45,256 nucleotides of DNA, taken from an uncultured Oscillospiraceae bacterium (GTDB lineage Bacteria > Bacillota > Clostridia > Oscillospirales > Oscillospiraceae). The stretch lies in NCBI GenBank assembly GCA_905236515.1, contig CAJOQP010000152.1:1-45256 (forward strand), given 5' to 3'. Positions within the stretch are counted from its first letter, which is position 1. Every line of letters begins with the position of its first letter. Shown here piece after piece: positions 775 to 41,035 of the stretch. A program made the translations under genes and the position numbers. The notes under the pieces were generated by a model. It searched no databases. It was not told the origin of the DNA and saw nothing but the letters and a program-made list of their open reading frames with translations.

Positions 775-1455
775 TCAGATCTGTTTATTGGCGATCCGTT
801 TGGGAACAACAGTCCTTTCGTTCTTATAAATGCTGTTTTCCGGGATAACACCTCGAACCGAAGATGTGGGGTAGATATTCGTATGTGCACCTATCACCGT
901 GCCGGGGTTTAAAACGCTGTTGCATCCTACTTCAACAAAATCACCCAATACAGCTCCGAATTTCTTGCGTTTCGTGGGAATCTCTTCGTTGCCTTTTACG
1001 ACAACAAGGGACTTGTCACTTTTCACGTTGGATGTGATCGACCCGGCCCCCATGTGGGATTTGTATCCCAGAATGGAGTCACCAACATAGTTATAATGCG
1101 GAGTCTGAACATTATCGAACAGAACTACATTTTTCAGTTCAACAGAATTTCCGACCACACAGTTTTTTCCGACGATGGCACTTCCACGAATAAACGCACA
1201 GTGCCGAACTTCCGCATTGTGATCGATAATACAGGGTGCTCCGATATAAGCAGATTCGAATACTTCCGCATCTTTTGCAATCCAAACATTTTCCTTTGGA
1301 CTGTAAAACTCATCTTCCGGAAGCGTCGGACCAAGTTTCAGGATAAAGTCAGAGATATCATCCAGGACTTCCCAGGGATACTGGACACCCTCAAATAATT
1401 CTTTCGCAATAGTTCGATTCAGATCCAGCAGATCTTTTACTTCTATATTCATCAT
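775..1455 (-). CDS. Stand-alone left-handed beta-helix acyltransferase, related to the C-terminal glucosamine-1-phosphate acetyltransferase domain of GlmU
   Basis: Hexapeptide repeats; VGNSVELKNVVLFDNVQTPHYNYVGDSILG...MGAGSITSN parallels GlmU VGNFVEMKKARL...AGHLTYLGD...IGAGTITCN. Start overlaps the glmM stop (ATGA). Confidence 0.8.
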   Translation of the reverse strand: MMNIEVKDLLDLNRTIAKELFEGVQYPWEVLDDISDFILKLGPTLPEDEFYSPKENVWIAKDAEVFESAYIGAPCIIDHNAEVRHCAFIRGSAIVGKNCVVGNSVELKNVVLFDNVQTPHYNYVGDSILGYKSHMGAGSITSNVKSDKSLVVVKGNEEIPTKRKKFGAVLGDFVEVGCNSVLNPGTVIGAHTNIYPTSSVRGVIPENSIYKNERTVVPKRIANKQI

Positions 1456-2798
1456 CGTACTTTCACCAGTTTTCCTGCTGTTCTCATAGCATCAATAATC
1501 AAATCCACATACTGAGAACACAATTCTTCTGTCTGGGCTTCCACCATCACGCGAAGTACAGGTTCGGTTCCGCTTTTTCGCAGAAGAACTCTGCCACGGT
1601 CACCAAGTTCCTTTTCCGCCTGAATGACCGCATTTTTAACTTCCTCGCATTCCATGGTGGAATCCTTATCATCCACTTCAACATTAGTCAGCTGCTGAGG
1701 ATAAATGACTACCGGAGCTGAAAGTGTGCTGAGCGGCTGTTTGGTTTCCGTCATTGCCTCCATCAGCTTAATCGCAGTGAGAAGTCCGTCTCCAGTATTG
1801 GCAAGATTACCGAAAATAATGTGTCCGGACTGTTCTCCTCCGAGGAGATGGCCGTTCTGCCGCATATTTTCAGCAACATATTTATCTCCAACATCGGTTT
1901 TTTCATAACCGATATTCAATTCATCCAGGGCCTTGTACAGTCCCATATTGGACATGACCGTAGTGACCACTTTAGAATCACCAAACTTACCTTTTTCCTT
2001 CATATATTTGGAACAGATATAAAGGATGTGATCCCCGGTAATGATGTTACCCTTTTCATCCACCGCAAGGCATCGATCTGCATCTCCGTCAAATGCGAAT
2101 CCTGCATCAAGATGATTCTCCAGAACATATTTCTGAAGATGCTCCATGTGTGTAGAGCCGCAATCAATATTGATATTTAATCCATCAGGATTATTGCCAA
2201 TCACATAAGTATCGGCCCCTAACGCATCAAAGATGCTTTTAGCCATCTGCCAGGTGGAACCGTTGGCGCAATCAAGACCAATCTTTTTCCCCTTGTAGGA
2301 ACGAGTAGCAAGAGAGATCAGATAACCGATATAGCGGTTTCGGCCGGATGCATAATCGACGGTACGTCCGATGTTTTCTCTGACCGCATAAGGAATATCA
2401 TCGGTGGAATCAAGATATTCCTCAATCCCCTCCAGAACAGACTCTTCCATCTTTTCCCCGGCACCGTTTAAAAGTTTGATGCCGTTGTCAAAATACGGGT
2501 TATGACTGGCTGAAATCATAATGCCGCAGTCAAAATCGTCGGAACGGGCAATATAGGACACGCTGGGGGTCGTAGTAACATGCATCATATATGCATCCGC
2601 CCCGGAAGAAGTCAGTCCAGCACACAGAGCATATTCAAACATATAACTGGAACGTCTGGTATCTTTTCCAATAACTACCTGAGCCTTATGATCTTTTCCA
2701 TAATACCATCCGAGGTATCGTCCAATGCGAAAAGCATGTTCCACTGTCAGGACTTTATTTGCCTCTCCCCGGAATCCGTCAGTACCAAAATACTTCAT
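1452..2798 (-). CDS. glmM: Phosphoglucosamine mutase
   Basis: MKYFGTDGFRGEAN..., SASHNPYFDNGIKL active-site loop, FDGDADRC metal loop, RKSGTEPVLRVMVE phosphate loop. Confidence 0.93.
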   Translation of the reverse strand: MKYFGTDGFRGEANKVLTVEHAFRIGRYLGWYYGKDHKAQVVIGKDTRRSSYMFEYALCAGLTSSGADAYMMHVTTTPSVSYIARSDDFDCGIMISASHNPYFDNGIKLLNGAGEKMEESVLEGIEEYLDSTDDIPYAVRENIGRTVDYASGRNRYIGYLISLATRSYKGKKIGLDCANGSTWQMAKSIFDALGADTYVIGNNPDGLNINIDCGSTHMEHLQKYVLENHLDAGFAFDGDADRCLAVDEKGNIITGDHILYICSKYMKEKGKFGDSKVVTTVMSNMGLYKALDELNIGYEKTDVGDKYVAENMRQNGHLLGGEQSGHIIFGNLANTGDGLLTAIKLMEAMTETKQPLSTLSAPVVIYPQQLTNVEVDDKDSTMECEEVKNAVIQAEKELGDRGRVLLRKSGTEPVLRVMVEAQTEELCSQYVDLIIDAMRTAGKLVKVR

Positions 2799-2825: not shown

Positions 2826-3545
2826 TTAAATATCAGATGCAGCTGCGCTGTCCACATAGAGATTCAGGTTCATATGAATCTGAAGCATGGACGCTGGAAC
2901 AAAGGGGATAGTTTTTCCATACACAATTTTATGTACTGCATCAGCTTTTTCTTCACCAGCGGCAATAAGATCGATATTCCGAGCGCTTACAATAGTCTTG
3001 ATTCCCATTGTAACCCCTTTTTCCGGAACATTCTCAGCTCCTCCGAAATCCTCAGCAACAAGGTTCTTCGTCTTATCCGTCAAAAGCTGAACATGGGTAT
3101 AAGATTCAAAGGGCGTTGCAGGCTCGTTGAATCCAATACTGCCGTTAACACCAATACCAAGAATCATCAGATCGATTCCGCCTGCAGCAGAAATCTGCTC
3201 ATCGTATTCCTTAAGTTTTTCTTCATCCTCTGAACAAAGACATGGATAGAAAATGTTGGCATCCGAGAATCCAGCACCTTCAAACAGATTTGCGTTCATG
3301 AACGAATGAATGCTTCCTGCATGATTCTTGTCCAACTCACGGTACTCACAACATACAAACACTCGGACATCACCAAAAGACAACTCCCCCGCCTGTCCAA
3401 GTTCTTTTAACTTCTGATATACAGGAATCAGATCTTTCCCAAAGGACAGTCCAAGGACAGCATTGGGTTTGTCATCCAGCAATTCCTTAACCTGGTCAGC
3501 GATCTGATCCGCGGATACACTGATATCGTTGGTAATGATTTTCAT
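2826..3545 (-). CDS. NagB-family (glucosamine-6-phosphate deaminase/isomerase-like) protein with substituted catalytic residues
   Basis: NagB-like layout (ISAAGGIDLMILGIGVNGSIGFNEP; GEEKADAVHKIVYGKTIPFVPASMLQIH), but VCCEY replaces the MDEY motif and VNGS replaces NDGH. Confidence 0.85.
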   Translation of the reverse strand: MKIITNDISVSADQIADQVKELLDDKPNAVLGLSFGKDLIPVYQKLKELGQAGELSFGDVRVFVCCEYRELDKNHAGSIHSFMNANLFEGAGFSDANIFYPCLCSEDEEKLKEYDEQISAAGGIDLMILGIGVNGSIGFNEPATPFESYTHVQLLTDKTKNLVAEDFGGAENVPEKGVTMGIKTIVSARNIDLIAAGEEKADAVHKIVYGKTIPFVPASMLQIHMNLNLYVDSAAASDI

Positions 3546-3579: not shown

Positions 3580-4035
3580 TTATTTCTCCGACAGAATCTT
3601 GGAGAGTTCCTCCATAAAGGTATTGATATCTTTGAAACTGCGATAAACAGAAGCGAATCGCACATAAGCGACCTCATCCACATCCTTCAGACGGCTCATG
3701 ACCATCTCGCCGATCTCCTGAGTGGCGATCTCACGTTCCAGAGAGCCCTGAAGCTCCTGTTCGATCTCATCGGCAATATGCTCAATCTGTGCCATCGTTA
3801 CAGGTCGTTTCTCACAGGCCCGTACCATACCATTGATCACCTTCGATTTATCGAAAGACTGTCTGCTTCCATCCCGCTTGACAACAATCAGAGGAACGCG
3901 CTCAACGATCTCATATGTAGTAAACCGCTTCTGGCAGGAAAGACACTCTCTGCGTCTTCGTATCGATGTTCCCTCTTCGGCCGGTCTCGAATCGATAACT
4001 TTACTTTCCAGATAGCTGCAATATGGACATTTCAT
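3580..4035 (-). CDS. nrdR: Transcriptional repressor NrdR
   Basis: [42 protein letters not shown] zinc ribbon and ATP-cone. Confidence 0.96.
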
Positions 4036-4103: not shown

Positions 4104-4169
4104 TAAGAGAATTGGCAATGCTCAAAAGAAACAAAAGTTAACATAATATTTTATAAGAAAAGGATGAAC

Positions 4170-4763
4170 TCAGTTTTCAAGTTCATCCAGTATTTGTTCA
4201 AGATCCGATCGGGATATCGTTCGGTTCAAATATTCCAGCAATGAATTAGAAGAAAGATTGGTTGGAATACCCAGCCTGGCCTGAAGTTTTTTCCTCTTAT
4301 TCCCGCTTTCCGGTCTGCCGGCCAATCCCCAAAAGAACAGATCGGTCTTTGTGAACGAAGCGGACTGTATGGAAGGTGCTTCTTCCACAAATGTCGCTCC
4401 GGCCTTCCGGAGACAATCTTCGAGGATCTGCGGTGACATGCCTTCCACGCCAAGCAGCCCCTCCTTGGATGGGGAGTTTTTTCTTCTCTCTTTTCCTGGG
4501 ATCTCAGGTATATATGCATTTTTAATCTTTTCCGGCGGTATAAAGCTCTTCAGGTAATTGCGAATCACCAGCCCTGCTCCATCAGAATCCGTCAGTATGA
4601 CGACTCCGTTTTTTTCGGCCAGAGCACGGATCATGTTTCTTTTTTCCTCATCATGAAAAACGCCGAAACCTGAAGTCTCCACGATCATAGCATCAACGAC
4701 CTGACTGAGAGCATTTTTATCATATCGTCCTTCTACGACGATCACTTCCTGCAGCCTGATCAT
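4170..4763 (-). CDS. rnmV: Ribonuclease M5 (TOPRIM)
   Basis: VIVVEGRYDKNALSQVVDAMIVETSGFGVF...VVILTDSDGAGLVIRNYLKS...AYIPEIPGKERRK. Confidence 0.9.
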   Translation of the reverse strand: MIRLQEVIVVEGRYDKNALSQVVDAMIVETSGFGVFHDEEKRNMIRALAEKNGVVILTDSDGAGLVIRNYLKSFIPPEKIKNAYIPEIPGKERRKNSPSKEGLLGVEGMSPQILEDCLRKAGATFVEEAPSIQSASFTKTDLFFWGLAGRPESGNKRKKLQARLGIPTNLSSNSLLEYLNRTISRSDLEQILDELEN

Positions 4764-40810: not shown

Positions 40811-41035
40811 TTAAAAGATAGAGGCGCAATTGTCATCAGTAATATGATTGGAAAGCTTTCGCACAGCATTGATCATATGAAAGGGGCCGTTGCCGAAGTG
40901 AAGGAATGCGAATCCTTTGCTGGGCAGTCGGATAAGATCCGGCTGACTGTCGCATTGGCGGAGTGCTATAATTAATTGATAATTCTGTTTTCATGAATTG
41001 TTATGACTTGCCGATGCACCTGCATCGGTTTTTTC
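40811..41035 (+). ncRNA. Lysine riboswitch (L-box) with terminator expression platform
   Basis: L-box landmarks in order: AGAGGCGC (40820), GAAAGGGGCCGTTGCCGAAG, TGCTGGGCAGTC, ACTGTCGCATTGGCGGAGTGCTAT (to about 40969); P1 arms attaaaagatag / ctataattaat; intrinsic terminator follows; drives dapA-dapB-dapH-lysC. Confidence 0.93.
41011..41034 (+). terminator. Riboswitch-controlled intrinsic terminator upstream of dapA
   Basis: ccgatgca cc tgcatcgg tttttt. Confidence 0.9.

Follow-up and report, generated by a model that had tools for sequence, protein, structure and literature searches.

The window analysed here, a stretch of 45,256 nucleotides, carries on its minus strand a row of genes in the order alaS, HIT, a holA-like gene, a Toprim/DUF4093 (RnmV-like) gene, nrdR, a NagB-like gene, glmM, a GlmU-C-like gene and DJ-1. 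The NagB-like gene (2826-3545, minus strand) starts with ATG, encodes a protein of 239 amino acids and has at its 5' side a GGAGG ribosome-binding site, which was read by eye. The glmM gene for phosphoglucosamine mutase (1452-2798, minus strand; TIGR01455, 530.5 bits, over the cut-off) begins 27 nucleotides past the NagB-like stop and is overlapped by a gene (775-1455, minus strand) for a GlmU-C-like left-handed beta-helix protein, corresponding to the acetyltransferase half of GlmU, which scored over the cut-off for Hexapep and below it for TIGR03992 (149.5 bits). Upstream, at a distance of 34 nucleotides, lies the conserved neighbour nrdR (3580-4035, minus strand; TIGR00244, 213.4 bits), and a terminator-like hairpin with a T run (4162-4188, minus strand), a consensus match only, separates it from the rnmV-like gene. 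Shared control of the NagB-like gene by a glmS ribozyme was considered and rejected, none being found at the window. A lysine riboswitch (RF00168, 91.4 bits) is present on the plus strand at 40811-40976.

The product of the NagB-like gene is a genuine NagB-fold protein. It matched PF01182 (Glucosamine_iso) with 63.8 bits against a Pfam gathering cut-off of 27, the domain extending over residues 12-222, and its best PDB match was the Bacillus subtilis NagB 2bkv (E 2.9e-40), which bears out the likeness to NagB along the whole protein claimed in a preliminary description of this DNA. No further Pfam domain was found in the 239 residues, and an N-terminal DNA-binding domain of the SorC/DeoR type is absent. 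The structure prediction which that description had proposed as a check was carried out and gave the NagB fold with good confidence: the AlphaFold model built from the first nine members (mean pLDDT 89.3, pTM 0.90) showed a TM score of 0.94-0.95 to 2bkv. A Foldseek search with this model also returned CggR and LsrR as weak matches. The score for the nagB equivalog model TIGR00502 was 176.7 bits, below the cut-off of 236.9, and eight other proteins of the same degraded type scored 101.8-166.3 bits; the two intact glmM-linked homologues tested, L007 (249.2) and L009 (261.0), passed it. For 6-phosphogluconolactonase (TIGR01198) the protein reached 62.4 bits, below the cut-off of 124.45.

Residues are numbered below by alignment to Escherichia coli NagB (MG1655) together with the B. 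subtilis and Streptococcus mutans enzymes, and all coordinates refer to the minus strand. In the E. coli enzyme we take Asp72 to be the catalytic base, and Thr41, Arg172 and Lys208 presumably form the phosphate site. In the window protein the motif [FV]N[ML]DEY is replaced by FVCCEY (3342-3359), in which Cys66 (codon TGT, 3348-3350) stands for Asp72, and the phosphate-binding loop, canonically GL[PA]TG[GS]TP, is degraded to GLSFGKDL (3429-3452), with Phe35 at the position of Thr41. The segment GIGVNGSIGFNEP (3120-3158) has Ser136 (AGT, 3138-3140) in place of His143 and Asn134 at the position of Asp141, and keeps Glu148 as Glu141. Lys208 is likewise retained, by alignment, as Lys200 (2946-2948). 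The coordinates and the three motif readings of the preliminary description were thus confirmed at the nucleotide level, along with its statements that Asp72 (FNMDEY to FVCCEY) and the phosphate loop (GLPTGGTP to GLSFGKDL) had been lost and that Glu148 and a C-terminal Lys remained. Two changes overlooked there are that of Arg172 to Glu165 (GAG, 3051-3053), by which a charge within the phosphate site is reversed, and that of Tyr85 to Ile79 (alignment). The phosphate-site trio Thr41/Arg172/Lys208 therefore reads Phe35/Glu165/Lys200, with one of the three residues retained.

The loss of Asp141 and His143, given earlier as a joint argument against a deaminase, stands in its second half only. The first half was rejected, because Asn is the commonest letter at position 141 (112 of the 172 NagBs compared), is normal in monomeric Gram-positive NagB and is also the residue of B. 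subtilis and S. mutans NagB; both of these are active, with measured Km values of 0.13 and 0.21 mM (PMC9812318). His143 of E. coli NagB is described as catalytic and interacts with Glu148 (PMC4008608); its replacement by Ser holds for the window protein and is not clade-wide, as described below.

The comparison comprised 172 sequences, 169 from one bacterial family and three reference enzymes. Dead forms, lacking the active-site residues, were found in 17 genomes, one in each, belonging to five genera (g1, g5, g51, g79 and g102) of that family; a first impression that they were limited to two genera was rejected after more loci of the family had been compared. Two sequences with unusual NagB-like active sites, L203 (Tyr72) and L237 (FAMDEW and Ala41), lie outside the dead-form clade and were not counted among the 17. 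Thr41, Asp72 and Tyr85 are conserved at 99-100% and Arg172 at 95% in the 149 canonical homologues, and none of the four occurs in any dead form. At the position of Arg172 an acidic residue is found in 13 of the 17 (Glu in 12, Asp in one), and at position 72 Cys is found in 13, Glu or Thr also occurring. Glu148 is retained in all 172 sequences, Lys208 in 15 of the 17 dead forms and His143 in 12, with Ser or Arg otherwise seen. Pro149, Leu162, Pro182, Gly139, Gly189 and Gly205 are, like Glu148, present in all 17. Because the four residues named first are missing throughout while the structural positions stay, the loss affects, on the alignment, catalysis and phosphate binding. In an order-wide profile search the 29 best matches outside the genome of the window were all canonical, so that none of these matches extends the dead-form clade outside the family; weaker-scoring dead forms could be missed by such a search.

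From these residues, the window protein is very probably not a deaminase. A residual or altered GlcN6P deaminase or isomerase working without Asp72 would agree with the preserved fold, with Glu148 and Lys208, and with the Asn at 141, which is compatible with activity; it is very unlikely all the same, since Asp72, Thr41 and Arg172, nearly invariant in canonical relatives, are all absent here. The suggestion of the preliminary description that the protein senses amino-sugar phosphates is likewise weakened, even with Lys208 kept in most dead forms: the canonical phosphate site itself is dismantled, which disfavours such a sensor of sugar phosphates. A ligand sensor of another kind would use the old pocket for a different metabolite, probably not anchored by a phosphate (an acetylated sugar or a UDP-sugar, for instance), and its ligand state would control a partner, by analogy with the NagB-like effector domains of SorC/DeoR regulators. 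Such effector domains, binding phosphosugars without catalysis, do exist (PMC11229326), CggR and LsrR are the weak structural matches noted above, and the pocket residues Glu148, Pro149 and Lys208 are retained. With no DNA-binding domain in the protein, and with a phosphate site in which a sugar phosphate is unlikely to sit in the canonical pose, we regard this sensor as a doubtful candidate.

The nearest relative of the window protein is that of genome G131 (88% identity), followed by a group near 45%, and a scan of contigs for relatives gave one only, RUG14779, with an 88% match. Sequencing error was rejected as the origin of the altered letters because the same letters recur in G131; the changes are, moreover, conserved across genera. 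Between the genome of the window and G131 a dN/dS of 0.041 was obtained, with dS near saturation, and between G208 and G154 the value was 0.085 at a dS of 0.37. The dead NagB-like gene is under purifying selection. Taken with the loss of the catalytic residues across the clade, this selection marks the protein, on sequence grounds, as a pseudoenzyme that is being maintained.

These data bear on two further explanations. A decaying former deaminase, released from selection because the lineage stopped breaking down GlcNAc, would account for the lack of NagA over the cut-off in most genomes, for the faster evolution of the NagB-like protein compared to GlmM and for the complete disappearance of the glmM-linked copy in G280 (genus g51). 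This explanation is largely refuted by both dN/dS values and by a reading frame that is open in each of the 17 genomes, whose proteins are in some cases only about 38-50% identical, and has become very improbable. The low dN/dS is compatible, on the other hand, with a neofunctionalised enzyme of different chemistry, in which a new Cys at position 72 (13/17) would act with His143 (12/17), Glu148 (17/17) and Lys208. Such an enzyme would be expected neither from the variation at positions 72 (Glu or Thr) and 143 (Ser or Arg), which leaves no common catalytic set, nor from the window protein, which is itself without His143; it therefore appears improbable.

The cluster of nrdR, the NagB-like gene, glmM and GlmU-C recurs in g102, G175 and g79 (synteny being seen in g1, g102, g5 and g79), and in many such clusters DUF421 and DUF4363 genes are inserted on the opposite strand. 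The dead form adjoins glmM in 13 of the 17 genomes and is apart from it in G041, G004, G289 and G252. In many further genera of the family the gene adjoining glmM is an intact nagB (loci L007, L009, L010, L020 and L023, for example). A third state is seen at L270 (G280), where the glmM/GlmU-C locus has no adjoining NagB gene and the sister genomes carry an intact or a dead copy. A separate NagB-like clade (L105, L108, L110 and L113-L116), located beside glmM and GlmU-C or immediately 3' of them, retains Asp72, His143 and Glu148 and has Gln, Ala or His for Lys208, possibly another functional variant. The glmM gene of G131 (L033:7152-8482) is interrupted by a TAA in frame; as glmM is normally an essential gene, this probably reflects a flaw in the assembly or the sequencing.

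In the genome of the window (1.84 Mb, 94.95% complete) no second PF01182 gene was found, and the dead form is the only NagB-family gene in 13 of the 17 genomes. That another NagB of the same genome compensates for the loss was rejected as a general explanation, a canonical second copy being located elsewhere in only four (G175, G004, G289 and G242); that of G242 adjoins a gene whose protein we judge to be nagA-like. A NagB running in reverse as a substitute for GlmS was also rejected, GlmS being over the cut-off in all 12 genomes tested, that of the window and 11 relatives, including the eight with dead forms. None of the nine dead-form genomes examined for NagA had a match over the cut-off, and of the 20 genomes searched G051 was the only one that did. 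Directly 5' of the canonical nagB, and not of glmS, glmS ribozymes (RF00234, over the gathering score) were found in G175 (L261:1935-2085), G004 (L262:2206-2340) and G289 (L263:800-948). In the last two the operon consists of the ribozyme, nagB, GlmU-C and glmM, and a GlcN6P-sensing ribozyme at the head of an operon for a deaminase and glmM looks unusual. GlmR/YvcK (TIGR01826) gave no match in 12 of the 17 dead-form genomes, among them those of the window, G131, G041 and six of g102, and matched in most relatives with an intact nagB; these absences may be an artefact of the search and were not trusted, because B. subtilis, which has YvcK, was not among the positives either.

The number of losses depends on the tree consulted. 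In the NagB tree all 17 dead forms are placed on one side of one branch (96/89), on which long branches are joined, and this single clade speaks against more than one loss; the argument is weakened by the very long branch of G242 (1.91). In the GlmM tree, a proxy only for the species tree, G242 groups (99) with three g51 genomes in which the corresponding locus holds an intact nagB, and the remaining 11 genomes with dead forms cluster together (SH-aLRT 86). Because G242 nests among intact-nagB genomes, the GlmM tree needs at least two changes between intact and dead nagB. With moderate confidence, then, the NagB active site would have been lost on two separate occasions. Since both losses concern glmM-linked loci, the intact glmM-linked NagB may already have had a second role.

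The reading that we prefer, with a probability of roughly 0.45, is that the glmM-linked NagB relative is a retained pseudoenzyme acting by protein contact at the branch point of GlcN6P, as a regulator or scaffold and not as a catalyst. The protein would have originated as a glmM-linked glucosamine-6-phosphate deaminase and would then have abandoned GlcN6P deamination, which, in genomes without NagA, would shield the GlcN6P made by GlmS from return to fructose-6-phosphate. Contact with an enzyme of the route from GlcN6P to UDP-GlcNAc, the first candidates being GlmM and the GlmU-C acetyltransferase, would tune the flux at this point. That the gene keeps its position, is single and is under selection favours a non-catalytic role close to UDP-GlcNAc synthesis, and the residue losses, the synteny and the selection together strengthen the original opinion that the protein is probably not a deaminase, and instead a pseudoenzyme standing with UDP-GlcNAc synthesis genes. 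The accompanying proposal that it regulates the neighbouring GlmM is plausible from the adjacency of glmM in 13 of 17 genomes; the four genomes in which the two genes lie apart disfavour an obligatory operon partner and leave a dedicated GlmM role unproven. Against a regulator it may be said that Glu148, Lys208 and His143 remain in all or most dead forms, so that some chemistry is conceivable, and that DUF421, DUF4363 and dapF, conserved nearby in some genomes, could equally be the functional context. It is tempting to speculate, as an unlikely but wider extension, that a family of glmM-linked NagB pseudoenzymes, having arisen at least twice, controls the branch point from GlcN6P to UDP-GlcNAc by protein contact and reveals a non-catalytic function of the intact glmM-linked deaminase.

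Databases are likely to label such proteins glucosamine-6-phosphate deaminase, since their best NCBIfam model, though scoring below the cut-off, is a deaminase one. Metabolic reconstructions of these uncultured gut and rumen Clostridia would then draw a reaction from GlcN6P to fructose-6-phosphate that is probably absent. Should the regulatory reading prove true, it would add a control point to the synthesis of bacterial cell-wall precursors, and the intact and dead copies at the same locus of sister genomes would offer a natural comparison by which the catalytic and non-catalytic roles of NagB could be separated.

The freely accessible papers searched contained no report of a free-standing NagB pseudoenzyme next to glmM. 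The closest known proteins are the monomeric Gram-positive NagBs of B. subtilis (2bkv/2bkx) and S. mutans (2ri0/2ri1), which the window protein resembles in whole-length homology, absence of the C-terminal helix, Asn141, Glu148, Lys208 and predicted fold (TM 0.95); those enzymes are active (PMC9812318), whereas the window protein is without Thr41, Asp72, Tyr85, His143 and Arg172. The canonical glmM-linked nagB genes of the same family (the five loci cited above) occupy the same place upstream of glmM and encode proteins of 42-45% identity, in which, unlike the window protein, all active-site residues are intact. The effector domains of the SorC/DeoR repressors (CggR, DeoR, LsrR) share the reuse of a NagB-superfamily fold without catalysis (PMC11229326); they are fused to a DNA-binding domain and bind phosphosugars, whereas the window protein is unfused and it matches them only weakly in structure (TM about 0.4-0.5). 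GlmR (YvcK) of B. subtilis has a proposed role at the GlcN6P branch point (PMC6171935); it belongs to an unrelated family, with no homology implied. The trypanosome prozyme, a dead relative under selection that controls an enzyme (PMC5201418), offers an analogy in the manner of working; the prozyme controls its own active paralogue, whereas in 13 of the 17 genomes described here there is no active NagB paralogue.
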